This document shows, one piece after another, positions 3,664-47,782 of a stretch of DNA of 64,000 nt. The notes under the pieces were generated by a model. That model saw nothing but the letters and a program-made list of their open reading frames with translations, searched no databases and was not told where the DNA came from. The DNA comes from Planotetraspora phitsanulokensis. GTDB taxonomy: Bacteria > Actinomycetota > Actinomycetes > Streptosporangiales > Streptosporangiaceae. Made by a program: the position numbers and the translations under genes. The DNA lies in contig NZ_BOOP01000041.1 of assembly GCF_016863295.1 (NCBI RefSeq), forward strand, positions 1 through 64,000. The letters run 5' to 3'. Numbering within the stretch: the stretch's first letter is position 1; every line of letters starts with the position of its first letter.

Positions 3664-4184
3664 GCCCCCGCGACTCCGCACACCCATCGGGGGAGTTCCC
3701 AGGCGGGACGCCCGGCCCGAGCTCCGGGGCGCGGTGGACCTTGCCTGCCATGGCGATCGTGCTCATCGGCTGCGTCGCCGGCGTCGTCGCCTGCTTCGTC
3801 ATGACGCGCGCGGCGGACGCCTATCCCCTGACCCACCGGCAGGTCGACGCCCACATCGTGCGGGTGGTCGGGCCGCCGGGCGGCGGAGGGCGGTCGCTGC
3901 CCGCGCCGGGAGCGGACGTGGAGGTGGCGTGGACGGGCAGGGACGGCGCCGTCCACACCGGCAGGACGCACGTGGGCCCGCTTCCGGACCTGAAGGAAAC
4001 CGTCCGGGTGTGGACCGACACGAGGGAACGGCTCGACTGGGGGCCCCCGGTGAACGGCACGATCATCCTGGGATCGGTGCTCGGGGGGCTCGCCGCGGCG
4101 AGTGCCGCGTGGTCGGCCGACCGGCTGGTGCGCGTCGGCCGCCGCGCCTGGACGGCGCGGCGCGCCGTGGCCGGATGGGAGTGA
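3660..4184 (+). CDS. Small two-TM membrane protein (Rv1733c-like)
   Basis: A 174-aa protein with a Pro/Gly-rich cytoplasmic start, one membrane segment at ~30-52 (MAIVLIGCVAGVVACFVM), an external domain of ~80 residues and a second membrane segment at ~133-150 (GTIILGSVLGGLAAAS). This two-TM layout around a small beta-rich extracytoplasmic domain matches actinobacterial Rv1733c-type proteins of unknown function. It overlaps the KimA-like gene by four bases (ATGA) and ends just before a strong terminator, so it closes the potassium operon. Whether it acts in K+ transport is unknown. Confidence 0.7.
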   Translation: MSPRDSAHPSGEFPGGTPGPSSGARWTLPAMAIVLIGCVAGVVACFVMTRAADAYPLTHRQVDAHIVRVVGPPGGGGRSLPAPGADVEVAWTGRDGAVHTGRTHVGPLPDLKETVRVWTDTRERLDWGPPVNGTIILGSVLGGLAAASAAWSADRLVRVGRRAWTARRAVAGWE

Positions 4185-4190
4185 GAATGG

Positions 4191-4224
4191 AAGGAGATCA
4201 CCGCCATAGGGCGGTGATCTCCTT
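4191..4224. terminator. Intrinsic terminator after the potassium operon
   Basis: Perfect 15-bp stem (AAGGAGATCACCGCC / GGCGGTGATCTCCTT) with the 4-nt loop ATAG, followed by a short T run on the + strand. It sits between convergent transcription units and can serve both. Confidence 0.92.
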
Positions 4225-4254
4225 TTTGCAGGGCTGCTCTGCTAGCGCCGCGGC

Positions 4255-4374
4255 TCAGCCCTGCGGCTTGGGTTCGCCCGTCTGCCATTCGCTGAGGCGG
4301 GCGGTCAGGAGCTCCGCGATCGACGCGGAGTCCTCATCCTGGTCGGCCAGGTCCTGTTCGAGGACGCACATCAT
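4255..4374 (-). CDS. Small acidic hypothetical protein (39 aa)
   Basis: A 39-codon frame starts MMCVLEQDLADQDEDS, runs through an amphipathic stretch (IAELLTARLSEWQ) and ends GEPKPQG. Its ATG overlaps the stop of the SAV_915 gene (ATGA), and it ends 31 bases before the shared terminator. The overlap and gene-like composition suggest translational coupling. I do not recognise the family; it could be a partner peptide of the SAV_915 protein. Confidence 0.5.
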   Translation of the reverse strand: MMCVLEQDLADQDEDSASIAELLTARLSEWQTGEPKPQG

Positions 4375-4631
4375 GCGCTCCTGGCGACGGACCGGGACAT
4401 GGTCCCGGCGGGGTCGATCACGATGCCGATGACGTCCAGGTCATTGATCATGCACCGGAGGGCGGGTTCGCTGAGGCGGATCCACTCCTGGTCACTGCCG
4501 AGCACCTTGGCCAGCCGGAGCGGCGAGGTGAAGGCCACCGAGGTCTTCTTGCCCGATGCCGTGCGGAACAGGCGAAGGGAAAGGGAGAGCGTGCCGCGGT
4601 TGACGGGCACATATAAAGGATCTTCCAGCAT
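4371..4631 (-). CDS. SAV_915 family protein
   Basis: An 86-aa protein that reads MLEDPLYVPVNRGTLSLSLR, then VAFTSPLRLAKVLGSDQEWIRLSEPALR and IGIVIDPAG. These blocks are typical of SAV_915, a small actinobacterial family of unknown function, often in several copies in Streptomyces relatives. The start at 4631 has a GGAGG ribosome site (complement of CCTCC at 4637-4641). It is transcribed away from the divergent ROK gene and is followed by a 4-nt-overlapping small ORF. No catalytic motif is visible. Confidence 0.8.
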   Translation of the reverse strand: MLEDPLYVPVNRGTLSLSLRLFRTASGKKTSVAFTSPLRLAKVLGSDQEWIRLSEPALRCMINDLDVIGIVIDPAGTMSRSVARSA

Positions 4632-4819
4632 GGTGTCGCCTCCAGGGGAGAACTCGTACAAAGGCGACGCTAGACCCGGATTTTGGCGAAATGCCTGTTC
4701 GCTACGGAATTCCGACGTCGGTCGCGCGAACGCTGACGCCGCTTTGACGCCTTCCGGACGGAGCGCGAGCGCCGGGCGGGGATCTCTGGCGCGCCCGGCG
4801 CTCTGGCACAATTCGGAAT

Positions 4820-6061
4820 GTGACACGCGCGGTGCAGCAGACGACACGTGACCTGCGTCGACACAATCGATCCGCGCTGCTCTCGCGTCTGTACGTCCAG
4901 GGGCCGACGAGCCGTCAGGATCTCACGAGAGAGTCCGGGCTCAGCTCGGCGACGGTGAGCAACGTCGTGTCCGATCTGATCAACGACGGCGTCGTCGCCG
5001 AGGCCGGGCTGGTGGAGTCGGACGGCGGGCGCCCGCGCACCCTCATCCAGGTCCGCGGCGAGTTCGGCCACGTCGTCGGGGTGGACATCGGCGAGACCCA
5101 CGTCCAGATCGGGCTGTTCGACTACACGCTCGGGACGCTGGCGACCGCGACGTACTCGGTGGCGGCCACCCGGCTGGAGCCCGAGCAGGTCGTCGGCCTC
5201 GTGCTCGCCGGGGTGCGGGAGGTCGTCTCCAAGGCCGGCGTCGAGACGGGCGGCCTGCTCGGGATCGGCGTCGGGGTTCCCGGCGCCGTGCAGGTCGCCG
5301 GGCGCGAGCTGGTCTACGCCCCGACCCTCGGCTGGTCGGCTGTGCCCCTCGGCGACATGTTGCGCCGGGATCTTCCCGCGCCGATCTACCTCGACAACTG
5401 CGCTCGCACGCTCGGGCAGGCGGAGATGTGGCGTGGAGCCGGCCGTGGCGCACGGCGGGCGATCGTCGCGCTCCTCGGCGTCGGGGTGGGGGCCGCGGTG
5501 GCCACCGCGTCGGAGTCGTTCCGCGACATGGCCGGCACGACCAGCACGACCAGCGAATGGGGCCACACCGTCATCAACGTGGACGGCAGGCCATGCAGAT
5601 GCGGGTCGCGCGGGTGCCTCGAGGCCTACGTGGGGGCGGAGGCGGTCCTCGACGACTATCTGGCGCTTCCGGACGCCAGGCCGTTCGAGTCGGCGGGGAC
5701 CGAGGCGCGCCTGGCGGAGCTGGTGGCGCGCGCGGAGGACGACGGCGGCGCGTCGCAGGTCCTCGGCAGGACCGCGGAGTACCTGGGCATCGGCATCGCG
5801 AACCTGATCAACCTGCTCAGCCCCGACCGGGTCGTCCTGTCCGGATGGGTGGGGGAGACCATGGGGGCCGCGATCCTGCCCGCCGTACGTGAGACCGTGC
5901 GACGCCACGCCCTGTCCTACATGTACGGCCAGGTCCGCATCGAGCTCGGCCAGCTCGGGCAGGAGGCCGTGGCGCTGGGGGCGGCGACGTTGCCGGTGGT
6001 CCAGGTGCTGGCGAGCGGAGGATCGGTCCCCGCCTCTGCACCCGGCCCCCACTTGCCATGA
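4820..6061 (+). CDS. ROK-family transcriptional regulator
   Basis: A 413-aa protein with an N-terminal winged helix (~20-60, SRQDLTRESGLSSATVSNVV) and a ROK sugar-kinase-like domain (~85-400). The ROK zinc signature CRCGSRGCLE lies near residue 259, after the HTVIN segment that supplies the metal-binding His. The nucleotide-binding loop is VVGVDIGETHVQIG. ROK regulators repress or activate sugar-use genes in response to a sugar or sugar phosphate. It starts at GTG 4820, divergent from SAV_915. The effector cannot be read from the sequence; the alpha/beta hydrolase or aldehyde dehydrogenase operon downstream could be targets. Confidence 0.88.
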   Translation: MTRAVQQTTRDLRRHNRSALLSRLYVQGPTSRQDLTRESGLSSATVSNVVSDLINDGVVAEAGLVESDGGRPRTLIQVRGEFGHVVGVDIGETHVQIGLFDYTLGTLATATYSVAATRLEPEQVVGLVLAGVREVVSKAGVETGGLLGIGVGVPGAVQVAGRELVYAPTLGWSAVPLGDMLRRDLPAPIYLDNCARTLGQAEMWRGAGRGARRAIVALLGVGVGAAVATASESFRDMAGTTSTTSEWGHTVINVDGRPCRCGSRGCLEAYVGAEAVLDDYLALPDARPFESAGTEARLAELVARAEDDGGASQVLGRTAEYLGIGIANLINLLSPDRVVLSGWVGETMGAAILPAVRETVRRHALSYMYGQVRIELGQLGQEAVALGAATLPVVQVLASGGSVPASAPGPHLP

Positions 6062-6089
6062 TCGTCACGCGGCCGTGAGGATGGGGGCC

Positions 6090-6977
6090 ATGCCTGCTTT
6101 CGCCGCTCCCGACGGGACCGAGCTCGTCTATCACGTCACGGGTGAGGGCGAGCCGCTCCTCTGCCTGCCCGGGGGGCCGATGCGCGCTTCGGCCTACTTG
6201 GGCGACCTCGGCGGGCTGTCCGGGCACCGCCGGCTGGTCATGCTCGACCTGCGTGGCACCGGCGACTCCGCCGTCCCCTCCGACCCGGCGACGTATCGCT
6301 GCGATCGGCAGGTCGCCGACGTCGAGGCCCTGCGCGTTCACCTCGGGCTGGATCGGGTCGACCTCCTCGCGCACTCCGCCGGCGGCGATCTCGCCCTGCT
6401 CTACGCGGCCCGCCATCCGCGGCGCGTACGGACGCTCACCCTGGTCACCGCCCGTGCGCGCGCCCTCGGTGTGGACTTCACCGAAGAGCACCGCCGGGAG
6501 GCGGCCGCCCTGCGCGCCGCCGAGCCCTGGTTCGGCGCCGCACACGACGCCTACGAAGCCGTCTGGGCCGGGTCCGCGACCGACGCCGACTGGGACGCCG
6601 TCGCCCCGTTCTTCTACGGCCGCTGGGACGCGGCCGCCCAGGCGCATTCCGCATCCGACCTCGAACAGAGCAACCTGGAGGCCGGCGACCTGTACGCGAC
6701 CTCGGGCGCCTTCGACCCCGACGCGGCGCGTGCCTCCGTCGCCGCACTGGACGCGCGGGTCCTGGTCCTCGCGGGCGAGCTGGACGGCAGCCCGCTTCCC
6801 CGCGTCGCCGCCGTCGTCGCCGCGATGTTCCCCCGGGCGGAGCTGGCCGTTCAGCCGGGCGCGGGCCACTTCCCCTGGCTCGACGACCCGCGTGGCTTCG
6901 CCCATACCGTCGCGACGTTCCTGGGCGCGGCCGGGCCGTCCGGTTCCGGGGAGGACCCAGCCGAGATCGCCAGTTGA
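6090..6977 (+). CDS. Alpha/beta hydrolase (proline iminopeptidase-like)
   Basis: A 295-aa single-domain hydrolase. The oxyanion region is LCLPGGPM (~25), the nucleophile elbow is AHSAGG with Ser ~96, and the catalytic His is in GAGHFPW (~259). LAGELDGSPLP holds the acidic residue. The cap region (~135-205) is rich in aromatic and acidic residues. HxxxG-type PGGP and the DLRGTGDS motif are typical of the proline iminopeptidase/haloalkane-dehalogenase superfamily, so the substrate is open. I chose ATG 6090 over ATG 6081 because GAGG at 6077-6080 abuts 6081 but is well spaced from 6090. Confidence 0.85.
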   Translation: MPAFAAPDGTELVYHVTGEGEPLLCLPGGPMRASAYLGDLGGLSGHRRLVMLDLRGTGDSAVPSDPATYRCDRQVADVEALRVHLGLDRVDLLAHSAGGDLALLYAARHPRRVRTLTLVTARARALGVDFTEEHRREAAALRAAEPWFGAAHDAYEAVWAGSATDADWDAVAPFFYGRWDAAAQAHSASDLEQSNLEAGDLYATSGAFDPDAARASVAALDARVLVLAGELDGSPLPRVAAVVAAMFPRAELAVQPGAGHFPWLDDPRGFAHTVATFLGAAGPSGSGEDPAEIAS

Positions 6978-7021
6978 CCTTCGAACCAACGGTACTTAGC
7001 TTAAGTCGTGGACTAAGTAGT
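6974..7021 (+). promoter_or_regulatory. Promoter with overlapping operator-like palindromes
   Basis: TTGACC (6974-6979), a 17-nt spacer and TAGCTT (6997-7002) form a SigA-type promoter upstream of the aldehyde dehydrogenase operon. The -10 is inside the palindrome ACTTA-GCT-TAAGT (6994-7006), and ACTAAGTAGT (7012-7021) follows. The second half also pairs with the first (ACTTAG at 6994, CTAAGT at 7013). This arrangement suggests repressor binding over the start site. Confidence 0.55.
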
Positions 7022-7065
7022 ACACGACCGTGGTGCCGCGCACCGGACGATCCATCGGAGTTCGA

Positions 7066-8499
7066 ATGCCATCTCGTCATGCCGACGGCCATCTCTACAT
7101 CGACGGCGCCTGGCGTCCCTCCGCGTCGGGCCGGTTCGGCGACGTGGAGGAGAAGGCGACCGGTGCTCGAATCGGGCGCTACGCCCTGGGCGGCGCGGCG
7201 GACGTCGACCTGGCGGTCGACGCGGCCCGCGCCGCGCAGCCGGGGTGGGCGGCCCTGTCCGCGCCCGAGCGCGCCGGTCACCTGCGCCGGATGGCCGAGC
7301 ACCTCCAGGGCCGCTACGAGGAACTCGTCACGCTGAGCATGCGGGAGACCGGAGGGGTCCGGGCCAAGGCCGAGGACGAGGTCTCCACGACCATCCGCCA
7401 GCTCGGCATCTCGGCGGTGCAGGCGACGGAGAACGCGGGGGAGATCCTGCCGCCCTACAAGGCGGGCAAGCTGTCCCTGTCGAGAGTGGTCCCCCTCGGC
7501 GTGCTCGGCGTCATCACGCCGTGGAACTACCCGATGAACCTGGCCATGCGCGCGGTCGCGCCCGGGCTGGCGTTCGGCAACACGCTCGTCCTCAAGCCGG
7601 CCGAGCTCACCCCGATCATCGGCGGGCAGGTGCTCGCCGAGGCGGCCGACCACGCGGGTCTGCCGCCCGGCGTCCTCAACGTGGTCACCGGCGACGGTCC
7701 CGACGCCGGGTGGCCGCTGGCCACTCATGACGGCCTGGACCTCATCGACTTCACCGGCTCGCGCAGGGTCGGCCTGGACATCGCCGCGTCGGCCGCCGCC
7801 GTTCTGCGTCCCATCCGCCTCGAACTGGGGGGCGACAACGCCTTCCTCGTGCTCGGCGACGCCGACGTCGACCTGGCCGCCTCGCTCGCGATGGTCGCCT
7901 CCCTCGAGTTCCAGGGGCAGACCTGCATCAGCTCCAGCAGGCACATCGTGGTCCGCGAAGTGGCGGAGGAGTACATCGCGGCGGTGACGCGCCGGGTCGA
8001 GGCCCTGCGCGTGGGCGACCCGCTGTCCGGCGAGGCCGACCTGGGCCCGTTGATCAGCACCGCCCAGCGCGACCGGGTGCACCGGACGATCGTCGAACCG
8101 TCCGTCGCGATGGGGGCCAAGCTCGTCGCGGGCGGCACCTACGACGGCCTGTTCTACCGGCCGACCGTGCTGACCGGCGTCACGCCGGACATGCCGGCCT
8201 TCACCGAGGAGATCTTCGGCCCGGTCATCCCGATCACGGTCGTGGACACCGAAGAGGAGGCCGTCGCCCTGACGAACGGATATCCGATGCTGATGAACTC
8301 GGTGTTCACCGCCGACCTCATGCGGGGCATGCGGGTGGCCGAGCGGCTGCAGGCCGGTGAGGTGCACGTCAACGACGCGCACGCCCGACACGGCGCGGAG
8401 AACCAGATGCCGGGCTTCACCCGGCGCCAGTGGATCGGCGTCCAGCGCACGCCGCTCGACCTCCCCGCCTGGACCGCCGATCCGGCGGGCCGGCCGTGA
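7066..8499 (+). CDS. NAD(P)+-dependent aldehyde dehydrogenase
   Basis: A 477-aa soluble enzyme that oxidises an aldehyde to the acid. The Rossmann region has TPWNYPMNLAMRA and LKPAELTP; the general base Glu is in LELGGDNAF (~253) and the nucleophile Cys in GQTCISSSR (~287). EEIFGPVIPI is the conserved C-terminal block. The tail NDAHARHGAENQMPGFTRRQW replaces the usual GGxxxSGxGR motif, like vanillin/benzaldehyde-type members. It starts at ATG 7066 and overlaps the ThuA gene by four bases (GTGA). The aldehyde substrate is unknown; the two downstream genes suggest sugar or hydroxyacid catabolism. Confidence 0.9.
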   Translation: MPSRHADGHLYIDGAWRPSASGRFGDVEEKATGARIGRYALGGAADVDLAVDAARAAQPGWAALSAPERAGHLRRMAEHLQGRYEELVTLSMRETGGVRAKAEDEVSTTIRQLGISAVQATENAGEILPPYKAGKLSLSRVVPLGVLGVITPWNYPMNLAMRAVAPGLAFGNTLVLKPAELTPIIGGQVLAEAADHAGLPPGVLNVVTGDGPDAGWPLATHDGLDLIDFTGSRRVGLDIAASAAAVLRPIRLELGGDNAFLVLGDADVDLAASLAMVASLEFQGQTCISSSRHIVVREVAEEYIAAVTRRVEALRVGDPLSGEADLGPLISTAQRDRVHRTIVEPSVAMGAKLVAGGTYDGLFYRPTVLTGVTPDMPAFTEEIFGPVIPITVVDTEEEAVALTNGYPMLMNSVFTADLMRGMRVAERLQAGEVHVNDAHARHGAENQMPGFTRRQWIGVQRTPLDLPAWTADPAGRP

Positions 8500-9164
8500 G
8501 CGAGGGGGCGCGCCGCCGCGCGCTGGTCGTACGCGGCGGCTGGGAGGGCCACGCGCCCGTCGAGGCCACCGAGCTGTTCATCCCGTCGCTCGTCGAGGCA
8601 GGCTTCGGCGTGACCGTCAGTGAGGACCTCGACGTCTACACCGACGCGGAGCTCATGGCGGCGACCGACCTGGTCGTGCAGTGCTGGTCGATCGGCACGA
8701 TGACCCCCGAGCAGAGCGCCGGACTGGTCTCCGCCGTGCACGCGGGCACCGGCTTCGCCGGCTGGCACGGCGGAGTGGTCGGCACCTTCGGCGGCAGCCA
8801 CGACTACCTGCGGATGGTGGGCGGGCTGTTCCTGTGGCACCCCGAGGACTTCCTCGAGTACGAGGTCACGATCGAGCCCGGCCAGGCCGGCCATCCGATC
8901 GTCGCGGGTCTCGACGACTTCACCGTGACGACCGAGCAGTACTGGATGCTCACCGACTCGCTGAACACGGTCCTGGCGCGGACCACGTTCACGCCGGAGG
9001 ACGGCGAGCACGGGCGAGGGCCGGTCGACATGCCCGTGGTCTGGACCCGCGGATGGGGCGCCGGGAAGATCTTCTTCTCGGCGATCGGCCACCGGGTCGC
9101 CGACCTGGAGCAGCCCGCGGTCCGCACGCTCACCGAGCGCGGACTCGTCTGGGCGGCACGATGA
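8496..9164 (+). CDS. ThuA-like domain protein
   Basis: A 222-aa protein of the ThuA (trehalose utilisation) family, a class-I glutamine amidotransferase-like fold. Diagnostic blocks are ALVVRGGWEGH at the start, DLVVQCW, GFAGWHGGVVGTF, WMLTDSLNTVLARTTF and the end MPVVWTRGWGAGKIFFSAIGH. Family members act in disaccharide or sugar-derivative use, and several work with dehydrogenases. The GTG start overlaps the stop of the aldehyde dehydrogenase, and the stop overlaps the next ATG, so the three proteins are made from one message. Confidence 0.85.
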   Translation: MSEGARRRALVVRGGWEGHAPVEATELFIPSLVEAGFGVTVSEDLDVYTDAELMAATDLVVQCWSIGTMTPEQSAGLVSAVHAGTGFAGWHGGVVGTFGGSHDYLRMVGGLFLWHPEDFLEYEVTIEPGQAGHPIVAGLDDFTVTTEQYWMLTDSLNTVLARTTFTPEDGEHGRGPVDMPVVWTRGWGAGKIFFSAIGHRVADLEQPAVRTLTERGLVWAAR

Positions 9165-10201
9165 GCGCCCCCGTGGGCGGCTCGGCGGACCAGGCCGTTC
9201 CCGGCGCCGTCGTGCTGGCGATGCCGGCGGCCCTGCCCTCCCGGCTCTTCCAGGGCGAGAGCGCGGAACGGCTCCACGCCCTCGTCGGCCCCGACTGGGG
9301 GCCGCCCGTCACCGGGTTCCACTCCGCCGAGGCTCTCGAGCGGCTGGCGCGGGCGCGCGTCCTGCTCACCGGCTGGGGGAGCCCGATGATCGACGACAGG
9401 GTGCTCGACCACGCGCCGCACCTGCGGGCCGTCGTCCACGCGGCGGGCACGGTGAAGGGCCACGTCTGCCCCTCGGTGTTCGAGCGGGGCGTCCTGGTGA
9501 GCTCGGCGGCCGACGCGAACGCGGTCCCGGTCGCCGAGTACACCGTGGCGATGATCCTGCTCGCCAACAAGGCGGTGCCCGCGATGGCCCGGGAGTACCG
9601 CGCCCGGCGGGAGGCGATCGACCTCATCGGGGACTATCCCGACGTCGGCAACCACGGCAAGACCGTCGGCCTGGTGGGCGCGTCGAAGGTCGGCCGCAGG
9701 GTCGCCGAGCTGCTCCGGCCGTTCGATCTCGAGGTGCTGGTCAGCGACCCCTACCTCGACGAGGCCGGCGCCGCCGCGCTCGGCGTGCGCAAGACCGGCC
9801 TCGACGACCTGTTCGCCTCCTGCGACGTCGTGTCCCTGCACGCCCCCGCGATCGAGGAGACGCGGGGGATGGTCGACGCGGCGCGCCTCGCCGCCATGCG
9901 CCCGGGCGCGACGCTGATCAACACGGCCCGGGGGTCGCTGGTCGACCACGACGCCCTCATCGCGGAGTTGCGGCGCGGCCGGATCTCCGCCGTGCTCGAC
10001 GTGACGGAACCCGAGATCACCCCGTCGGACTCGCCGCTGTGGGAGCTGCCGAACGTCGTCCTGACCCCCCACGTCGCCGGATCCCTGGGCAACGAACTGG
10101 CCCGGCTGGGGTCGCAGGCCCTGGACGAGGTGCTCCGGGTCATCGACGGCCGGCCGCTGCGTCATCCCGTCGATCTGGCGGCTCTGCCGGTCACCGCCTG
10201 A
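9161..10201 (+). CDS. D-2-hydroxyacid dehydrogenase family protein
   Basis: A 346-aa NAD-dependent oxidoreductase. The NAD-binding Rossmann loop is VGLVGASKVGRRVAELL (~165-180), the catalytic Arg is in NTARGSLVD, a Glu in DVTEPEITPSDSPLW and the catalytic His in TPHVAGSLGNE. The expected GxGxxG is written GASKVG, so the second glycine is Ser-Lys-shifted. The N-terminal substrate domain has GWGSPMIDDRVLDHAPHLRAVVHAAG. It ends a three-gene operon with the aldehyde dehydrogenase and ThuA protein; a hydroxypyruvate- or sugar-acid-type substrate is likely. Confidence 0.88.
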   Translation: MSAPVGGSADQAVPGAVVLAMPAALPSRLFQGESAERLHALVGPDWGPPVTGFHSAEALERLARARVLLTGWGSPMIDDRVLDHAPHLRAVVHAAGTVKGHVCPSVFERGVLVSSAADANAVPVAEYTVAMILLANKAVPAMAREYRARREAIDLIGDYPDVGNHGKTVGLVGASKVGRRVAELLRPFDLEVLVSDPYLDEAGAAALGVRKTGLDDLFASCDVVSLHAPAIEETRGMVDAARLAAMRPGATLINTARGSLVDHDALIAELRRGRISAVLDVTEPEITPSDSPLWELPNVVLTPHVAGSLGNELARLGSQALDEVLRVIDGRPLRHPVDLAALPVTA

Positions 10202-10243
10202 CACCCACGCCGAAAACCCGGGTCTTCGCCGTGGAGTCCGGCG

Positions 10244-10882
10244 TCAGTGGTGGTAGGCGTGTACGACAGCGTGGCCCCGGCCCCTGCTGATGATCCACTT
10301 GTTGGCGGGGGTGGTGACGGCGAAGGCCAGCGCCAGCGAGGCCGCGAGCGATCCCCAGAAGAGCCCGGTGGTCAGCCCCGCGTCCATGGCTCCCGGGACG
10401 ACCAGGAGGAAGCCGTTGTCCACGATCTCCATGATCAGGATGGAGAGCGTGTCCGCCGCGATCGCCAGCCGTACGGCCTGCCGCCAGCCGACCTCGGCGC
10501 GGAGGAGGCCGCGCAGGGTCAGCGCGTAGCCGAAGAGGAACGCCAGGGCGACCGACAGGACCAGCGTCGCAGCGTCGCCCCAGGACAGGGCGGTGCCGAT
10601 CACCATGCCGAGCACCTCGCCGATGGCGCACCCGGTGAGGCAGTGGAGGGTCGCCGAGGCGGCCGTCCGCCACGTCGCCGGCTGGGGTCCGTGCCCGTGT
10701 TCTGTGTGCCCATGTTCCGTGTGCTCCGCGTGCCCGCGCTCCGTGTGCTCCGTGTGCTCCGCGTGCCCGTGCTCCGTGTGCGCGGTGTGCATGGTTTGGG
10801 CGGCGCCGGCCTGCGGGCTCTCGCCGTGGCCGGCCGGGTGACGCGGGGGTGCGGGATCGTCTGCGGGTGTCGATCCGGACAT
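10244..10882 (-). CDS. DUF4396 membrane protein with His-rich N-terminus
   Basis: A 212-aa protein. Residues ~31-66 are a low-complexity metal-binding tract of HTEHGHAEHTEH-type repeats. Four hydrophobic segments follow (~78-98, 102-122, 135-165, 170-192), ending TPANKWIISRGRGHAVVHAYHH. The core with LHCLTGCAIGE and DTLSILIMEIVDNG matches DUF4396. Two Cys in the first membrane segment (LHCLTGC) could bind a soft metal. A CsoR-like palindrome covers its -10 box, so copper control and a role in Cu(I) handling are my inference; the biochemical function of the family is not known to me. Confidence 0.82.
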   Translation of the reverse strand: MSGSTPADDPAPPRHPAGHGESPQAGAAQTMHTAHTEHGHAEHTEHTERGHAEHTEHGHTEHGHGPQPATWRTAASATLHCLTGCAIGEVLGMVIGTALSWGDAATLVLSVALAFLFGYALTLRGLLRAEVGWRQAVRLAIAADTLSILIMEIVDNGFLLVVPGAMDAGLTTGLFWGSLAASLALAFAVTTPANKWIISRGRGHAVVHAYHH

Positions 10883-10913
10883 GATGATCTTCCTCTCGGC
10901 TCGGTCGACCTTC

Positions 10914-10933
10914 ACTATACCCCCAGGGGGTAT
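10914..10933 (-). promoter_or_regulatory. CsoR-like copper operator over a -10 box
   Basis: A perfect 17-bp palindrome, ATACCCCC-A-GGGGGTAT (10917-10933), matches the G-tract style of actinobacterial CsoR operators. On the - strand it runs directly into TATAGT (10919-10914), a good -10 for the DUF4396 gene, which starts 32 bases further on. Binding would block the promoter. Confidence 0.75.
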
Positions 10934-11105
10934 CAGCGGCGTCGTACCCCGGATGGCGGCGACGCGGTGAACCGGAGGTACTCTGCGCTCATGAGGCCCG
11001 ATGATCAGCTCCCGCGGAAAGCGCCACACGACATGAGCGCACCGGTCGCGATGTGCCCCCTCACATCTCCGGCGTCGTCGTCCGCGGGACCGGTGGGCTG
11101 AGGTC

Positions 11106-11918
11106 ATGGGAAGCGGAGTCCGGCGGATCGTCCTGCTCACACTCGGCTGGGAGGACCTGCCCAAGACGGTCTCGGTGCACGGGGACACCTCGGGGACGCG
11201 GCTGCGCGAGCCCGTGCCCGGCGTGCTGCTCCAGACCGACGGCGGCTGGGTGCTGCTCGACACCGGGTTCAACACCGCCCTGATCCGTGACGCGGCTCTC
11301 GCCCGGCGGTTCTATCCGCGGCCGGAGTACCTCCCCGTGCTCCCCGGATCCGGAGAGCCGCTCGAGGAGACGCTCGCGGGGGCGGGCATCGCGATGGAGG
11401 AGATCCGTGCGGTGGCTGTCAGCCACCTGCACCTCGATCACGCGGGAGGGCTCAAGCACTTCGCCGGGCGCGTTCCCGTGCACGCCCAGCGGACCGAGTT
11501 GCGGTACGGCCTGTCGGACGCGGCGGAGGCGCACGGCATCTTCCGCATCGACTTCGACGACCCGCGCATCGACTGGCGGCTCGCCGATGGGGAGGCGGAG
11601 ATCGCCCCGGGGGTGACCGCCGTGCCGACGCCGGGCCACACCCCGGGCCACCAGAGCTTCGTCGTCGACCTGGACGAGTCCGTGGGCGGCGGCGGCTTCG
11701 TCTTCGCCTTCGACGCGGCCGACCTCACCGAGAACGTCGACGGGGAACTCGCGGTGGGCGGGTTCATCGACTGCGAGCCGCAGGACACCGTCGAGCAGAT
11801 CAGGAAACTCAAGAAGATCGCCGCGGCGAAGGGGTATGCGCTGATCCCGGGACACGACCCGGTGGCGTGGCCGGCCTACACGGCCGAGTTCGCCGAGCGC
11901 TTCCGGGCTCGCGGCTGA
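11106..11918 (+). CDS. Metallo-beta-lactamase-fold hydrolase (AHL lactonase-like)
   Basis: A 270-aa protein with the dinuclear zinc motif HLHLDH near residue 108, a downstream His in PTPGHTPGHQ (~178), an Asp in FAFDAADL and a final His in IPGHDP. N-terminal LLQTDGGWVLLDTGFN is typical of the N-acyl-homoserine lactonase subgroup. Family members hydrolyse lactones, so quorum quenching or lactone detoxification is possible. The gene stands alone, divergent from the DUF4396 gene across ~220 bases. Start ATG 11106 is supported by the GVRRIVLLTLGW opening. Confidence 0.85.
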   Translation: MGSGVRRIVLLTLGWEDLPKTVSVHGDTSGTRLREPVPGVLLQTDGGWVLLDTGFNTALIRDAALARRFYPRPEYLPVLPGSGEPLEETLAGAGIAMEEIRAVAVSHLHLDHAGGLKHFAGRVPVHAQRTELRYGLSDAAEAHGIFRIDFDDPRIDWRLADGEAEIAPGVTAVPTPGHTPGHQSFVVDLDESVGGGGFVFAFDAADLTENVDGELAVGGFIDCEPQDTVEQIRKLKKIAAAKGYALIPGHDPVAWPAYTAEFAERFRARG

Positions 11919-12704: not shown

Positions 12705-13852
12705 GCGATCTCCTCCAGATCCAGGACGGCGGCGAAGGGGTCGTCGAAGGCGGCCCAGGCGTCGGGGCCGGCGACGGATTCCTCCGGGGTGAGCAGGCAC
12801 GAGTCGAGCAGCGCGTGGATGCGCTCGCGGTCGAGCTCGGGGCCGGTGAAGACCAGGTGCTGGACGCGGTCGCCGACGGTGGGCGCCCAGTCGAGCGAGG
12901 CGGCCATGCGGCGCGCGGGCGAGACCAGCTCCCACGCTGCGTCGGGCAGCGCCGCCAGCCACGGGCCCGCGTCCTCGACGGAGACCACGCCGGCCACCGC
13001 GTCCCAGGCCAGCAACCGCTGCGGCCGGGTGGCCAGCCAGAACCGGCCACGGCTGCGGACCGATTCGGTGACCAGTTCGTCGACGGCCTCGAACAGGCGG
13101 TCCGGGTGGAGCGGGCGGAGGCGGTGCCAGACGACCGTGGTGATCTCGTCCGTGACCGCGTCGCACGGCAGCTGCGCGGTCGCCGGGTCGACGCGCGCCG
13201 CCAGTTCGTCGGCGCGCAGGGCGGGACCCGTCACCTCGGGGAGCGGACCGTCCACCGGCGTGACCGGGGTCAGCGGGGCGAGATGGCCCAGCACGGCGCG
13301 TGTCAGCTCCACGTCCCCCTCGTCGCCGTCGCCGCGGTGGACCATCAGGCCGGTGGCGTACTCGATCTGCCGGGCGAGCACCTCGGCCAGGTAGCGCTGG
13401 TCGCCCTGCGCGGCCTGCCTGCCGACTTCGACGAGGCGGTCGGCGCGGGCGATGTCGACGGGCATGTGCTCGGCGTCCAGCGCGGTCAGCACGGCGGTGA
13501 CCCGGAGGAGGTCGTGTGCCTCCTCGCAGTCGAGGGCCTCGGCGACGGACCGGGGCTCGACCGAGTCCCACAGGTCCGCGATGAGCAGCGGGGCGGCGCC
13601 GGCCTGCCGTACGAGCTCGGGCACCAGGTCCTCGCGCACCGTGCAGGTGACGCAGCCGTGGGCGAGCCGGACGTCGGTCCTGTCACGGATCCGGTCGGCG
13701 TCGCGGACGACCCGCTCCACCCGGCCACGGGTCACGTCGCGCAGGTCGTGGTGGACGGCGACCGCTCCGGGGTGGGCGCGCAGCAGCCGGTCGACGGCGG
13801 CGGTCCTGGCCGCGTCATGCAGGCCCGCGACGAGGACAACAGGGACGGACAC
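12701..13852 (-). CDS. COG0523 (CobW/YciC-like) metal-homeostasis protein
   Basis: A 383-aa member of the G3E/COG0523 family of metallochaperone-like GTPases. The family cysteine motif appears as [10 protein letters not shown] (~77-86), followed by the [10 protein letters not shown] switch region, and the C-terminal CobW_C domain lies at ~230-370. The P-loop is degenerate: where GxxGxGKT is expected the protein has [15 protein letters not shown], with no Lys-Thr, so ordinary GTP binding is doubtful. I chose GTG 13852, which has a GGAGGGAG site, over an ATG further upstream that would run through the Zur-like box. Confidence 0.88.
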
Positions 13853-13875
13853 GAGGTCTCCCTCCAGGAATAAAA

Positions 13876-13890
13876 CGGTTATCATTTTCA
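13876..13890. promoter_or_regulatory. Zur-like operator between divergent zinc-stress genes
   Basis: On the - strand the site reads TGAAAATGATAACCG, close to the actinobacterial Zur consensus TGAAAATGATTTTCA. It lies in an AT-rich patch (13869-13897) 24 bases from each start codon, between the COG0523-rpsR pair and the rpmG-rpmF run, so one Zur dimer pair could repress both directions when zinc is plentiful. Confidence 0.82.
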
Positions 13891-13914
13891 TTCTACGACC
13901 CGAAAGGAGCTGGA

Positions 13915-14079
13915 GTGGCCAGAAACGAGGTGCGTCCCGTGATCAAGCTGCGTTCGACCGCGGGAACCGGCTACACCTACGTGACCCGCAAGAACAGGCG
14001 CAACGACCCCGACCGGCTGACGCTGCGCAAGTACGACCCCATCGCCCGGCAGCACGTGCTGTTCAGAGAGGACCGATAA
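13915..14079 (+). CDS. rpmG: 50S ribosomal protein L33, zinc-independent paralogue
   Basis: A 54-aa L33: [20 protein letters not shown], then [20 protein letters not shown] and [14 protein letters not shown]. The CxxC pairs of the zinc form are missing (KLRS and KYDP instead). GTG start at 13915 has an AAAGGAG site. It is the first gene of a five-gene run facing the COG0523 gene across the Zur-like box. Confidence 0.95.
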
Positions 14080-14081
14080 CC

Positions 14082-14327
14082 ATGAGGAAGGGCATCCACC
14101 CCGAGTACCGTCCGGTCGTCTTCCGCGACCCCAGCGCGGACTTCGCCTTCCTGACGCGGTCGACCGTCACGAGTGACAAGACCATCGAGTGGGAGGACGG
14201 CAACGTCTACCCGGTGGTCGACGTCGACGTGTCCTCGGCGAGCCACCCGTTCTACACCGGTCGCGGGCGCGTGCTCGACACCCAGGGCCGCGTCGAGCGC
14301 TTCCGCCAGCGCTACGGGAGCCGGTGA
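14082..14327 (+). CDS. rpmE2: 50S ribosomal protein L31 type B
   Basis: An 81-aa L31: [20 protein letters not shown], then [19 protein letters not shown] and [20 protein letters not shown]. Length and sequence are type B, which lacks the CxxC zinc site of type A. In Streptomyces and mycobacteria this form is made under zinc limitation. It follows L33 by two bases and overlaps L28 by one (TGATG). Confidence 0.95.
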
Positions 14328-42688: not shown

Positions 42689-43960
42689 GTGGCGCGTTCA
42701 TGGGCGGAGCTGCCGACAGGCCGCGTCATCTGCCTGGCGGGAGCCGGCCGCGAAGCCCTCGCGCTGTCGCTGGAATCGCTGCCCGCTGGTGCCCCCGCCG
42801 TCCTCACCTACGCCGCGAGTGCGGCGCCCACCGCCTCCGCCATGGTCGAGTCGGTGTTGTCGGAGCTCGAAACGGCCGCCGTCGCTCTCTATCCGGCCTG
42901 GCTGCCGGACGCCGAGGGCATCGAACCCGGGGGAGCCGGAGTCGGCGCGGTCCGGGCGCTCGCCCTGCGGATGGCCTCGGGCACGCATCACTTCGGCCCT
43001 TTCGTGGCCGACCTCGCTCAGGCGTCCCTGACCGGACAGGCGCCAGGGCCCACGCGGTTTCCCGCCGAGGTGCGGGCAGCCGGTCTCGCGCGCGTGCTCG
43101 CCGCGGCGTTCGGCCGCCGGCAGGTCGCGTTGCTGGTCGACGTCCCCGAGGGCCTTTCGGCCCGGGACGAGGACGTGCTGGTCGCGGGATGCGAGTGGCT
43201 GGCCCATCGCTCCGGTATGGGCGTGTGGCTCACCGGCGCGCGCGTCGTCCGCGCCGACCGCCTGGAGACCGTGGCCGTGCGGCTCCCGGAGGACGTCGCC
43301 GCCATAGCCCGCGACGTGCCGGAGACCTCCGTACACGCGGCCGTTACCGCTCACACGCCCGCCGGCTCCCTCCCGCCGGTTACCGCTCACGCGCCCGCGG
43401 GCTCCCTCCCGCCGGTTACCGCTGACGCGCCTGCGGACTCCCTCCCGCCGGTTCCCGCTGACGCGCCCGCGGGCTCTCTCCGGCCGATACCCGCCCGGAC
43501 CGAGACGTCCGTACGGAAGGGTCCCGATGGTCGCGGGCACGGCGCCTCCGAACCCCGCACGGGCGAGCCCGCCATCGGCTACCCGGCCGTGACGGGGCGC
43601 CCGCACCCGGCGAGCGCCGCCGAACAGGCGCTGGAGAGGGCACTGGCCTCCAGCCAATGGGCCGCCGGGCGGGCCTGGAACCAGACCCACCGGTCCCACG
43701 CCCTCGCCCGCACCTTCCGGCTCGACCTCCTCTGGCGTGAGGAGCGGTGCGTGGTCGAGGTCGACGGCCCGGAACATCGCGAGGCGGTCCGCTTCGAAGC
43801 CGACCGGCGGCGCGACGTGCAACTCCAGCTCGACGGCTTCGCCGTGCTGCGCTTCACGAATGACCAGATCGCCTCCGATCTCGCCGCTGTCGTCCGCCAG
43901 CTGGAGCGGTTCGTCACGAGCCGCCGCACTGGAACGTTCGAAGGGTCACACCATGGCTGA
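42689..43960 (+). CDS. DUF559 nuclease protein, first gene of the HerA trio
   Basis: A 423-aa protein. Residues ~1-220 are an unrecognised domain (RVICLAGAGREALALSLESL) with no P-loop. Residues ~218-270 are four 12-residue VTAHAPAGSLPP-type repeats and a Pro-rich linker. The C-terminal DUF559 domain (~310-410) has RLDLLWREERCVVEVDGPEH and DRRRDVQLQLDGFAVLRFT: the D and E-x-D of a Vsr/PD-(D/E)xK-like nuclease with the following His are intact. The GTG start has AGGTGAAG upstream. It overlaps the next gene by eight bases, so the three proteins are co-produced. Confidence 0.75.
   Translation: MARSWAELPTGRVICLAGAGREALALSLESLPAGAPAVLTYAASAAPTASAMVESVLSELETAAVALYPAWLPDAEGIEPGGAGVGAVRALALRMASGTHHFGPFVADLAQASLTGQAPGPTRFPAEVRAAGLARVLAAAFGRRQVALLVDVPEGLSARDEDVLVAGCEWLAHRSGMGVWLTGARVVRADRLETVAVRLPEDVAAIARDVPETSVHAAVTAHTPAGSLPPVTAHAPAGSLPPVTADAPADSLPPVPADAPAGSLRPIPARTETSVRKGPDGRGHGASEPRTGEPAIGYPAVTGRPHPASAAEQALERALASSQWAAGRAWNQTHRSHALARTFRLDLLWREERCVVEVDGPEHREAVRFEADRRRDVQLQLDGFAVLRFTNDQIASDLAAVVRQLERFVTSRRTGTFEGSHHG
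43343..43486 (+). repeat. Four-copy 36-bp coding repeat
   Basis: Four 36-bp units encode VTAHTPAGSLPP and variants, a linker before the nuclease domain. Exact unit length means copy number can change without a frameshift. Confidence 0.85.
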
Positions 43961-44561
43961 CATAAACCTGTCCCTGCCCCAGATCGCCGCCCTCGTCGTG
44001 CTCATGGTGGAGGCGGGTGAGATCTCCAACACCGACATGAAGGCGCGCCACGGCATCACGCTCGACGGCGCCGACCGCCGGAAGTTGAACGAGCTGAAAC
44101 TCGTCGACAGCTGGAAGCAGGGGCGCCCGTACGTCCACGTGCTGACCGACGCGGGCTGGGCACGGGTGGCGGAGGAGTTCCGCGCCGGCACAGTCAAGGT
44201 CACCGGGTCGCCTTGGACGACGGCCCGGGCGCTGATGAGCGGCGTCCAGGGCTTCATGGAGCGGACCGATCGCAGGCTCGCCGACGTCTTCGGGCCCGCG
44301 TCCGACGTCGAGGCCCTCATCCGGGAGGCCTACGCGGAGCTGGCCAGGGAGCCGGGAGGCTGGGTGAGCCTCACGGAACTCCGCGTGCTCCTGCGCGACG
44401 CCGCGAGGACGAAGGTGGACGAGACGCTCAGGCGGATGGCCGCCATGCCCGACGTGAACGTCGTCCCGGAGTCGAACCAGAAGGCCCTCACCCGGCGCGA
44501 CCGGGAAGCCGCGCTGGTCATCGGCGACCAGGACAAGCACCTCATCTCGATCGGAGCATGA
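43953..44561 (+). CDS. Winged-helix-like protein between nuclease and HerA genes
   Basis: A 202-aa protein. The N-terminal half (~8-75) is helix-rich with a winged-helix look: LSLPQIAALVVLMVEAGEIS, NTDMKARHGI and LVDSWKQGRPYVHVLTDAGW. The second part (~100-200) has a second possible HTH, GGWVSLTELRVLLRDAARTK and VDETLRRMAAM. I do not recognise a named family. Its 8-nt overlap with the DUF559 gene and 4-nt overlap with the ATPase gene indicate a stable complex. It may be the DNA-recognising or adaptor part. Confidence 0.65.
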   Translation: MADINLSLPQIAALVVLMVEAGEISNTDMKARHGITLDGADRRKLNELKLVDSWKQGRPYVHVLTDAGWARVAEEFRAGTVKVTGSPWTTARALMSGVQGFMERTDRRLADVFGPASDVEALIREAYAELAREPGGWVSLTELRVLLRDAARTKVDETLRRMAAMPDVNVVPESNQKALTRRDREAALVIGDQDKHLISIGA

Positions 44562-47500
44562 TGACGGTCGACGCGAACACCGCGCTCTCCGCGCTCACGT
44601 TCAACTGGGCCTCCGGCCCCGAAGACGTCTGGAGCCCGTCGCTCTTCCACGTCGAGGCGTTGAACCGGCCGACCGCGCAGGCGGTCCTCGACGGTGTGGG
44701 CGAGGCCGCCCGGAGCGCGGGAACGAGCCCGATCGGGCTGGTCATCGAGGGTCAGCGCGGTGTGGGCAAGACGCACCTGCTCGGCTGGATCCGGGAGAAG
44801 GTCCAGGAAGAGGGTGGCTACTTCTTCCTCGTCGGGCTCTTGGACGCCGGCACGTTCTGGGTCAACGTCGTGAACTCGATGATGGACAACCTGTCGCGCG
44901 AGCTGGACGGCGAGAGCCAGCTCAAGGCGTTCCTGCGCCGCATCTCCTCGCAGGTGGGCGTGTCCAGGATGGTGCGGCGCGCGGTGATCGGCGACACTCC
45001 GGTGACCGCGGAGGCTCTCGACGTCTTCATCGAGGCGCTGCGCGGCTACGACGGGCACATCGGCAGGGAGAGCCAGGACGTCGCGAGAGCACTCGTGCTC
45101 CGCGCCTCCAAGGATCCGCACAATCAGGACGTCGCGGATGCGCTGCTCTATTCGCAGCCGGAAGAGGAACCGGGGGATCGTGCGCCCTGGGGCATACGGC
45201 GAGGATGGCGGTCTCCGCAGGAGATCGTCAGGGACGTGTCCCGCCTGCTCGCGCTCACCGGTCCCTCCGTCATGGCGATCGATCAGATCGACGCATTCAT
45301 CTCAACAGCGGCGACCCGGACGCTGGACCGTACGGGCGACTGGCGCGAGGCGCTGGTGATGGACCAGTTCGCGGGCGGCCTCATGGCGCTGCGCGAGGTC
45401 ACCAGACGCACGCTCACCGTCCTCTCATGCATTCCTGCGACGTGGGCGCTCATCAAGACGAACGCCACCGACACGGTGCAGGACCGGTTCCGCAAGCCCG
45501 TTCAGCTCAAGGCCGTCCCCGATGCCGAGACCGGCCGCGCCCTGGTCGAACGACGGCTCGGGGCGCACTACCGCTCCGTGGGCTTCCGGCCGCCCCATCC
45601 GTCCTGGCCGGTCAGGCCGAGCGCCTTCGACTCCGTGCCCGGGCTCACTCCGCGGCAGATCCTGATGAGGATCGACGCGCACATCCGGTCCTGCCGGGCC
45701 GCAGGCGAGATCACGGAGCTGGCGGGCTTCGACGGCGCCGGCGCGATGGCCCCCGAGCACGTTCCCACGCCCCACTTCGTCGTGCCCGAGGCGGATCTCG
45801 GCGCGCTGGACGCCCGGTACACCGAGCTGAGGAGCGCGGCACAGGTCGCGGCGGAGGCCGCGGCGGCGCTCGATCCCGCGACGGAGGACACGACGATGCC
45901 GGCGCTCCTGTCCGCGGGGCTCGCCGCGTGGATCGCCGAGCGGGGCGAGAGCGGGCGGACGTTCAGCCAGGACGCCCCACCCAGCGCGAAGCCGCCCCTC
46001 CATGCGCGTCTGCGGCGGTCCCTCGACGAGGCCACGGAAGACGAGGAGCACTGGAGCTTCCGCGCGATAGCGGCGGCTCACGCCAACGCCGCCCTCACCC
46101 GGCTGCGCAACGCGTCGGTCGCGGCGGCGCTGGACTCCGCCCTGGGCAAACGCAGGTTGTTCCTGCTGCGCAACACCGAGTGGTCGGGCGGCGCCAAGAC
46201 GCGGGAGGCGGTCGCGGCCTTCGAGCGGGCGGGCGGCAGGACCCTGCGGGTCGAGGAGGAGGACCTGAAGATCCTCGCGGCGCTCCGGGCCCTGCTGAAG
46301 GAGAATTCGCCCACCCTGCAGGCGTGGCTCGCCGCCAGACGGCCGACCGGCGAGATCAAGCTGCTCGGCGACGCGCTCGGCGACGTGTGGACCGTTCCGT
46401 ACGGCACGCCCGCCGAGGAAGGGGATACCGCGGCGCCGGTGGCCGCCACGGGCGGTGATGTGGGCGCCCCGGCCGTGGATCTCCCGACGGACGCGGCGGC
46501 GGCGACCCGGGGTGAGAAGGCGTCGGCCGTGCCGGCCCTCACGGGAAGCGCGGACGCCCCGTCGATCGTGATCGGGACGACCGCCGACCGGGTTCCCGTC
46601 CGAGTCGGCCTGGAGGCGCTGCGGAAACACACGTCGATCTTCGCCGGCTCGGGTTCGGGGAAGACCGTGCTGATCCGCCGGCTGATCGAGGAGTGCGCGC
46701 TTGAGGGGGTGTCGGCCATCGTGCTCGACCCCAACAACGACCTCGCACGCCTCGGCGACCGCTGGCCGGAGCGGCCCGGGCAATGGGGGGACGGCGACGC
46801 GGACAAGGCCGAGCGCTACCTCGCGGGCACCGACGTCACGGTCTGGACGCCCGGCCGGGTCGGCGGGCGCCCCCTGGCCTTCCAGCCGCTTCCGGATTTC
46901 AGCGGCGTGCTGGACGACGCGGACGAGTTCCGAGAGGCCGTCGACGCGGCCGTCTCGTCGCTGGTGCCCCGGGCGAAGCTCGAAGGCAACACGCAGAAGG
47001 CCCACCGCGGCCGGGCGGTCCTGAAGGAGGCGGTCGAGTACTACGGGCGGCACGGGACCGCCGGCCTGCACGGTCTGATCGCGCTGCTGTCCGAGCTTTC
47101 CGAAGGGGTGAGCACGCTCGCCGGCGCCGACAAGATCGCGGCGGAGATCGCACAGAACCTCACGGCGACGATGGTCAGCGACCCGCTGTTCGGCGGCGAG
47201 GGCGCGGCGGCCGACCCCGGGGTGCTGCTGACCCCGCCGCCCGGCAAGAGGGCCCGCATCTCAGTGATCAGCTTCGTCGGCCTGCCGTCCGACGAGCAGC
47301 GGCAGAGTTTCGTCAACCTGCTGCAGCTCGCGCTGTTCTCGTGGATCAGAAGGAACCCGGCCGGCGACCGGCCGCTGGGCGGCCTGTTCGTCATGGACGA
47401 GGCGCAGACGTTCGCGCCGTCCGGGGCGATGACCGCGTGCACGCACAGCACGCTGGCGCTCGCCTCCCAGGCCCGCAAGTACGGCCTCGGCCTCGTCTTC

Positions 47501-47782
47501 GCGACGCAGGCCCCGAAAGGGCTGCACAACCGCATCCCCGGGAACTCCGCCACCCAGTTCTTCGGACTGCTCAACAGCCCCGCCCAGATCGAGGCGGCCA
47601 AGGAGGTGGCGAGGTCCAAGAACAGCGCCATCGGGGACGTCGGGCACCTCGGCCCCGGCGAGTTCTACGCCGGCGTCGAGGGGACGGCGTTCGCCAGGAT
47701 CCAGGCCCCCATGTGCCTGAGCCACCATCCGAGAAGCCCGCTGACGACGGAGGAGGTCATCCAGAGGGCTAGAAAACTGTAG
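44558..47782 (+). CDS. Fused AAA-type and HerA/FtsK-type ATPase
   Basis: A 1,074-aa protein with two P-loops. The first (~67-75, GQRGVGKTHLLG) belongs to an ORC/STAND-like AAA domain with a Walker B-like MAIDQIDAFIS (~240) and sensor-like LSCIPATWALI. The second (~697-704, GSGSGKTVLIRR) is HerA/FtsK-type, with Walker B LFVMDEAQTF (~945) and the HerA arm VFATQAPKGLHNRIP (~980). Between lie helices and a ~140-residue region with KKLFLLRN-type beta-alpha units. HerA enzymes translocate DNA with nucleases, so with the DUF559 protein it likely forms a DNA-processing machine. Start ATG 44558 overlaps the previous stop; ATG 44561 follows in frame. Confidence 0.82.
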   Translation: MMTVDANTALSALTFNWASGPEDVWSPSLFHVEALNRPTAQAVLDGVGEAARSAGTSPIGLVIEGQRGVGKTHLLGWIREKVQEEGGYFFLVGLLDAGTFWVNVVNSMMDNLSRELDGESQLKAFLRRISSQVGVSRMVRRAVIGDTPVTAEALDVFIEALRGYDGHIGRESQDVARALVLRASKDPHNQDVADALLYSQPEEEPGDRAPWGIRRGWRSPQEIVRDVSRLLALTGPSVMAIDQIDAFISTAATRTLDRTGDWREALVMDQFAGGLMALREVTRRTLTVLSCIPATWALIKTNATDTVQDRFRKPVQLKAVPDAETGRALVERRLGAHYRSVGFRPPHPSWPVRPSAFDSVPGLTPRQILMRIDAHIRSCRAAGEITELAGFDGAGAMAPEHVPTPHFVVPEADLGALDARYTELRSAAQVAAEAAAALDPATEDTTMPALLSAGLAAWIAERGESGRTFSQDAPPSAKPPLHARLRRSLDEATEDEEHWSFRAIAAAHANAALTRLRNASVAAALDSALGKRRLFLLRNTEWSGGAKTREAVAAFERAGGRTLRVEEEDLKILAALRALLKENSPTLQAWLAARRPTGEIKLLGDALGDVWTVPYGTPAEEGDTAAPVAATGGDVGAPAVDLPTDAAAATRGEKASAVPALTGSADAPSIVIGTTADRVPVRVGLEALRKHTSIFAGSGSGKTVLIRRLIEECALEGVSAIVLDPNNDLARLGDRWPERPGQWGDGDADKAERYLAGTDVTVWTPGRVGGRPLAFQPLPDFSGVLDDADEFREAVDAAVSSLVPRAKLEGNTQKAHRGRAVLKEAVEYYGRHGTAGLHGLIALLSELSEGVSTLAGADKIAAEIAQNLTATMVSDPLFGGEGAAADPGVLLTPPPGKRARISVISFVGLPSDEQRQSFVNLLQLALFSWIRRNPAGDRPLGGLFVMDEAQTFAPSGAMTACTHSTLALASQARKYGLGLVFATQAPKGLHNRIPGNSATQFFGLLNSPAQIEAAKEVARSKNSAIGDVGHLGPGEFYAGVEGTAFARIQAPMCLSHHPRSPLTTEEVIQRARKL

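Follow-up and report, generated by a model that had tools for sequence, protein, structure and literature searches.

HerA/FtsK capture systems are conflict systems whose gene neighborhoods, as described in the main text of Rakesh et al. 2024 (PMC10853773), hold an Orc/CDC6 ATPase, an inactive and an active restriction endonuclease (REase), a HerA/FtsK ATPase, and a winged helix-turn-helix (wHTH) protein, in arrangements that range from a single polypeptide to several. Here, we analyzed three consecutive genes found in the window, i.e., a stretch of 64,000 nucleotides from the soil actinomycete Planotetraspora phitsanulokensis (contig NZ_BOOP01000041.1, positions 1 to 64,000). The trio forms an operon on the + strand coding for a DUF559 nuclease protein, a small protein, and a large protein that combines an AAA domain with a HerA domain. 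We favor, with modest confidence, the view that this operon is an actinomycete conflict system of that capture kind, in which the effector slot can take different proteins. The features are as follows.

42689-43960, + strand: gene 1, 423 amino acids, GTG start; probable inactive nucleoside triphosphatase (NTPase)-like domain, disordered linker, and DUF559 nuclease
42689-43318, + strand: gene 1 N-terminal domain, ~210 residues, P-loop NTPase-like fold without Walker A motif
43607-43930, + strand: DUF559 endonuclease domain of the Vsr fold, spanning residues 307-414, with invariant residues of catalytic type
43953-44561, + strand: gene 2, 202 amino acids; two probable winged-helix domains read from the sequence pattern only
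44558-47782, + strand: gene 3, 1074 amino acids; AAA domain, middle domain, and HerA/FtsK ATPase
44558-45757, + strand: gene 3 N-terminal AAA-type ATPase, residues 1-400, from the AAA_22 match and column counts
45791-46387, + strand: gene 3 middle domain, residues 412-610, from AlphaFold2 (AF2) secondary structure and conservation
46547-47752, + strand: gene 3 HerA/FtsK translocase domain, spanning residues 664-1065, with intact catalytic motifs

Compared by description, the trio and the capture systems share an AAA domain, a HerA/FtsK domain, and a nuclease predicted to be active in the trio (PMC10853773), and the likeness may extend to a possible inactive REase-like domain after the AAA domain and a probable wHTH protein. 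As in a capture system, a predicted HerA/FtsK translocase is linked to an REase-type nuclease. The trio matches the capture kind on the testable parts, with candidate counterparts for the Orc/CDC6-type AAA, the inactive REase, and the wHTH. The first-pass annotation of this DNA had named no system for the AAA fusion or the N-terminal part of the nuclease protein and had proposed a candidate new system, a view corrected by the closeness of the trio to this published kind. There are differences. In the systems described in PMC10853773 the inactive REase lies between the AAA domain and a C-terminal wHTH, whereas in the trio HerA follows, and the Toll/interleukin-1 receptor (TIR) domain is fused to Orc/CDC6 there but to the nuclease in relatives of the trio. 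The main text of that paper mentions neither DUF559, trypsin, nor WD40, and its supplements may already include the trio family. We found no description of the trio or of its DUF559 or trypsin versions in a literature search whose scope stopped short of supplements, bioRxiv, and most subscription journals. BREX-Related Capture (BRC), as presented in the portions of PMC12839542 consulted, resembles the trio in combining a HerA translocase with an effector, and its ORC/Cdc6-like AAA and wHTH-type protein may correspond to the AAA domain and the small protein of the trio; it has seven components including PglZ, DUF6079, and DUF4007, none of which appeared in the Pfam scan of the trio.

The three genes are tightly coupled. 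The gene 1 stop codon ends at 43960 and the gene 2 ATG lies at 43953 (overlap of 8 bases), and the gene 2 stop codon occupies 44559-44561 with the gene 3 ATG at 44558 (overlap of 4 bases). We then examined relatives, counting over the best 80 named loci of at least 526 confirmed gene 3 relatives, a sample that leans to close relatives. A gene 2 relative lies beside gene 3 in 80/80 of these loci and a DUF559 gene is present in 63/80, so that the genes are mostly conserved together, and the refuting condition set in the first-pass annotation, a lack of joint conservation, did not apply. The gap from gene 2 to gene 3 is at most 30 bases in 79/80 loci, and in 59 of the 63 loci with DUF559 the nuclease gene lies no more than 60 bases from gene 2. 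Because these gaps stay short, the arrangement exceeds chance. Gene 3 shows 79-91% identity to same-genus genomes and 78-89% to named Planotetraspora loci. The core, i.e., gene 2 and gene 3, or the trio is found in 16/37 genomes at the family level (own genome included, one partial match excluded), and the core is present in 26 of the 246 genomes sampled at the class level (own genome included). The trio is both conserved and patchily distributed.

What varies is the gene that precedes the core. Among the 80 loci, this slot holds DUF559 (63 loci), a trypsin-WD40 protein (11 loci), a P-loop protein (4 loci), or DUF4365/PDC-M02B (1 locus), and is cut by the contig end in the last (L104); all 16 DUF559-less loci with visible upstream sequence hold another gene in that place. 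The trypsin-WD40 partner is in divergent orientation and has a Trypsin_2 match (E = 1.4e-9 in L082), WD40 parts, and a P-loop seen by eye; in 9 of these 11 loci, Trypco1 is its neighbor. In this it resembles the Trypsin/Trypco1 conflict systems (Kaur et al. 2020, PMC7159879), in which Trypco1 also stands beside a trypsin-like peptidase; in the passages of that paper considered here, HerA occurs in one reference only and there is no account of a trypsin system coupled to a HerA core. The P-loop partner (L084, L109, L112, L118) is codirectional with the core and has an invariant GKT P-loop, and the two members scanned gave no Pfam match. In L069, a relative of this protein with weak helix-turn-helix and AAA matches directly precedes the DUF559 gene. 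The DUF4365 protein with the PADLOC candidate PDC-M02B occupies the slot in L116, and L035 and L037 are of the same type.

Relatives of trypsin, Trypco1, and PDC-M02 were found in 0/63 DUF559 loci, 8 of which have less than 5 kb of upstream sequence. The trypsin type occurs in 0/63 DUF559 loci versus 11/16 others (Fisher P = 5e-10, ignoring kinship). In a FastTree phylogeny built from 83 rows of gene 3, 4 changes suffice to explain the four partner labels, compared with a mean of 15.4 after shuffling. The trypsin loci form a single clade with full support, which argues that this swap probably took place once and was then kept. The link between trypsin gene and core has been kept even though only 5 of the 55 pairs of the 11 loci share another flanking gene family.

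The wider class-level sample, in which the loci of 20 of the 26 matches were examined, yielded 13 DUF559 loci, 1 trypsin/Trypco1 locus (L146), and 1 DUF4365/PDC-M02B locus (L151). In three of the DUF559 loci (L149, L154, L157), a TIR_2 domain (E = 2e-33 to 2e-34) is fused to the N terminus of the DUF559 protein with its NTPase-like domain. Three loci (L162 to L164) hold a large variant beside PknB-like kinase genes. Of these 20 loci, all but L162 (19/20) were found to have gene 2. In L148 (G441, 2001-11686), a DUF559-type trio adjoins a larger AAA-HerA variant and two PknB-like kinase genes; this variant has 1447 amino acids, a long Pro/Ala-rich linker, and a HerA domain that seems to lack the helical insert. 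In three Microtetraspora loci (L045, L050, L091), the trio is likewise followed immediately by a kinase-like gene, at about 13300-14150.

The exchange of partners bears on the proposal that the ATPase feeds DNA to the DUF559 nuclease, made in the first-pass annotation: linkage of the nuclease holds in 63/80 loci, yet it is one of several exchangeable partners. Abortive infection, in which the core would sense invasion and kill or arrest the cell via any effector that it is paired with, no DNA being fed to a nuclease, would account for slots filled by trypsin-WD40, P-loop, DUF4365, or TIR-bearing proteins. However, a DNA nuclease is the commonest partner (63/80), and full conservation of the HerA motor residues across the aligned rows suggests that pumping is important. 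We regard this explanation as quite unlikely.

We then analyzed the proteins individually. The GTG start of gene 1 is backed by a conserved N terminus in the alignment, for which 60 of 64 rows were used and four short or cut rows were omitted. Gene 1 matches the DUF559 profile (PF04480, E = 1.2e-11, residues 340-407; Pfam). Residues D346, E357, D359, H363, D372, and D376 are invariant in 60/60 rows, and profile, Vsr fold, and conserved acidic residues all place gene 1 in the DUF559 family. Elsewhere in the same genome, another DUF559 match (L002, G000:C37:42587-42793) is weak, with an E value of 9.9e-4 that is above the cutoff. The domain assignments in gene 1 are based on a second look at the structure model with VIA. 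The N-terminal ~210 residues have a P-loop-type fold and the Walker A motif is found in 0/60 rows, indicating that this part is probably an inactive NTPase, and probably a docking or sensor domain. The first-pass annotation had named no system for the N-terminal 220 residues, whose fold does point to a type. A Foldseek search with the gene 1 model returned no match at E = 0.001, the top rows being ABC-type ATPases at E = 0.01. The linker (43340-43545 of the window) is repetitive and Pro/Ala-rich, with very low model confidence.

Gene 2 evolves fast, with a median pairwise identity of 39% versus 56% for gene 3 over the 63 loci. In profile scans of gene 2, no match to Pfam, NCBIfam, PADLOC, or PHROGs was better than E = 0.012. 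The winged helix proposed earlier for this protein is still read from the pattern of its sequence, in which a double winged helix is probable, and gained nothing from the profiles. Calmodulin matches in a PDB profile search (E down to 4e-4, among the 60 of 177 matches listed) were rejected as pattern overlap with EF-hand helices.

Gene 3 has P-loops at residues 65-72 and 697-703 and a HerA Walker B motif, MDEAQ, at 946-950. These, like the open reading frames, the two overlaps, and the DUF559 domain, agree with the first-pass annotation. Walker A, Walker B, the sensor Gln, and the upstream Arg, all within a HerA fold, make the C-terminal part a member of the HerA/FtsK superfamily. This fold strongly matches HerA, DndH-C, and the SIR2-HerA and DUF4297-HerA antiphage complexes, and HerA-NurA structures are among the best matches. 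Classical HerA proteins of the HerA-NurA or SIR2-HerA type carry an N-terminal HAS barrel before the motor. The alignments of gene 3 to HerA chains mostly begin at model residue ~665 and chain residue ~110-150, earlier residues being barely covered; the VIA look at the fold spans residues ~663-1070 only, and conclusions are confined to that part.

The N-terminal part of gene 3 matches AAA_22 (E = 3.4e-8), with AAA_16 below the cutoff (Pfam). By column counts over 56 of 81 rows, Walker A is intact, R310 is invariant, and Walker B is D242-Q243, with Gln replacing the usual Glu in 56/56 rows. A PDB profile search with this AAA domain gave weak matches, the best at E = 0.013, and the same search with the middle domain gave chance matches only. 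In the AF2 secondary structure, the middle domain has a predicted strand order that resembles the REase core, and the ExK motif is absent; it is thus possibly an inactive REase. The arrangement of the domains in gene 3 is unsure because the pTM (predicted template modeling score) of the model is 0.58.

Several other HerA systems are similar in part. SIR2-HerA (Nezha) and HerA-DUF4297 likewise combine a HerA motor with an effector, and their motors are strong fold matches. Unlike in those systems, HerA is fused to the AAA and middle domains in the trio, and no SIR2 or DUF4297 domain was found in the trio scans, arguing against membership. DndFGH has DndF and DndG and joins REase and HerA in one protein, DndH, whereas the nuclease of the trio is a separate DUF559 protein; membership was rejected, as no Dnd model matched the trio at E = 1 or any of 38 neighbors at 1e-15. 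Among PADLOC models, mad8 of MADS fits gene 3 best (E = 8e-18, HerA part), but no other component of the mad1-mad8 set was present in the trio or the 38 scanned neighbors in the window, and MADS was likewise discarded. Apart from such matches to the HerA part, PADLOC (2023) contains no model for the trio.

A number of observations weigh against a capture-type conflict system. None of 38 scanned neighbors in the window matched PADLOC at 1e-15 (of the 50 genes predicted outside the trio, 12 spurious-looking or cut ones were omitted), and the window does not resemble a defense island. Around the relatives, PADLOC scans revealed no clear defense-island enrichment of near over far neighbors, in a test of 110/309 near and 110/362 far proteins past length and distance filters, at 1e-15 and with loci of Planotetraspora, L049, L104, L120, and L121 excluded from the drawing. 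In the near set 54 PADLOC families were matched, the 25 listed ones, such as PD-T4-6, mad6, a kinase model, and MkoA, by 3 members each, and in the far set 4. At phylum level, 4/296 sampled genomes (own included, with at most two candidates scored per genome) have the core, far sparser than in the class sample. No relatives were found among viral contigs and phages. The core occurs without a recognized partner in 2 of the 20 wider-sample loci (L147, L160). hhalign related neither the AAA nor the middle domain of gene 3 to the nuclease protein, and both the Orc/CDC6 identity of the AAA and the identity of the middle domain are unproven. Finally, 5/5 own-genus genomes searched keep the trio beside trkC/kefC, which also fits a role in the lineage. 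On the other hand, Lamassu-like LmuA and LmuB genes (PADLOC E = 8e-167 and 5e-174) lie near a DUF559-type trio in L110 (3393-7447), and relatives of these genes are clustered in two more genera.

The site itself was compared among genomes. Labeled by sequence inspection, a universal-stress-type gene (42063) lies upstream of the trio and a trkA-C/kefC-type pair (47857, 48354) downstream. The trio adjoins trkC/kefC in the window and in G001 to G004, all of its own genus; in L023 the contig starts too close to show the upstream gene. In G007, G008, G009, and G013, kefC/trkC has no trio within 1,500 flanking bases, and the trio or core is on other contigs. The trio diverges faster than this flank: relative to L042, identities are 73% for the nuclease, 79% for the small protein, and 81% for the HerA protein, versus 98% and 96% for trkC/kefC. 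This, too, is tempered, as other flanks vary as well (STAS, 85% and 72%; usp, 93% and 76%). The dN/dS ratio (nonsynonymous to synonymous substitution rates) is 0.17-0.37 across the three genes (NG86, window versus four Planotetraspora relatives).

Stable syntenic retention in five Planotetraspora genomes and purifying selection on the three genes would also be expected of host DNA processing or repair, in which HerA and the nuclease would act on chromosomal ends or recombination intermediates as HerA-NurA does, with no immune role. The HerA-NurA structures among the top fold matches and the lack of defense-model matches in the scanned window neighbors point in the same direction. Yet the trio is patchy within family and class, and repair leaves unexplained why the slot is held by trypsin-WD40 or P-loop proteins and why TIR fusions occur. 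We consider such a role unlikely.

Three plasmid records match gene 3. A Tsukamurella plasmid carries a complete trio, and on a Methylobacterium plasmid the trio has, in the place of gene 2, a 226-residue protein without BLAST similarity to gene 2. Partial, apparently broken copies of gene 3 are present at L039 (7758-8395) and L038 (9553-10065), and one relative has a single internal stop codon (L133, G507:C10). The broken L039 copy, a HerA end, sits among genes resembling those of conjugative elements by inspection. Together with the HerA/FtsK/TrwB-like fold and the description of related HerA/FtsK neighborhoods as mobile in Rakesh et al. (main text of PMC10853773), the plasmids and the L039 copy would suit a mobile-element module, i.e., a translocase-nuclease that helps integrative or conjugative elements to spread or compete and does not serve host immunity. 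In contrast, 0/28 listed recurrent neighbor clusters resemble an integrase or transfer gene by inspection, without profile annotation, the trio has long resided at a single site in Planotetraspora, and phages and viral contigs yielded no relative, making this explanation improbable.

A conflict or defense role remains the best reading because the relatives of this coupled, conserved, and patchy module carry immune-type domains. The trio is a real, conserved operon, probably of immune type, and in the favored reading its conflict target is DNA, with a function that is probably antiphage or antiplasmid. Starting from the observed order of the genes, their conservation, the intact motifs of the nuclease and HerA, and the exchange of partners, we infer a capture-type mechanism of DNA sensing, complex formation, DNA feeding, cleavage, and defense. 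The constant core would consist of the small, probably winged-helix, protein and the AAA-HerA protein. The small protein and the AAA part may recognize or load on foreign DNA. The N-terminal AAA could act as an ATP-binding switch, since its Walker B holds Gln instead of the catalytic Glu, and the HerA-type ring would pump DNA. The DUF559 protein would dock through its inactive NTPase domain and cut the captured DNA. As relatives fill the slot with trypsin-WD40 and Trypco1, a P-loop protein, DUF4365 and PDC-M02B, or a TIR-nuclease, the core probably triggers interchangeable effectors. The replacement of the nuclease by a protease-WD40 protein, or the addition of TIR, suggests that the core may be a trigger as much as a feeder.

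More tentatively, the small protein and AAA-HerA may represent a general invader-sensing hub into which a DNA nuclease, a TIR-nuclease, a trypsin-WD40 protease, a P-loop protein, or a DUF4365 module plugs, a DNA translocase thereby controlling DNA-cutting, protein-cleaving, and NAD-consuming outputs, with the inactive NTPase domain of the DUF559 protein as its plug; this we hold as a possibility rather than an expectation. If confirmed, the system would tie a DNA-pumping ATPase to effectors that can be exchanged, a protease and TIR among them, and its compact operon of three genes would allow the capture model of Rakesh et al. to be tested.

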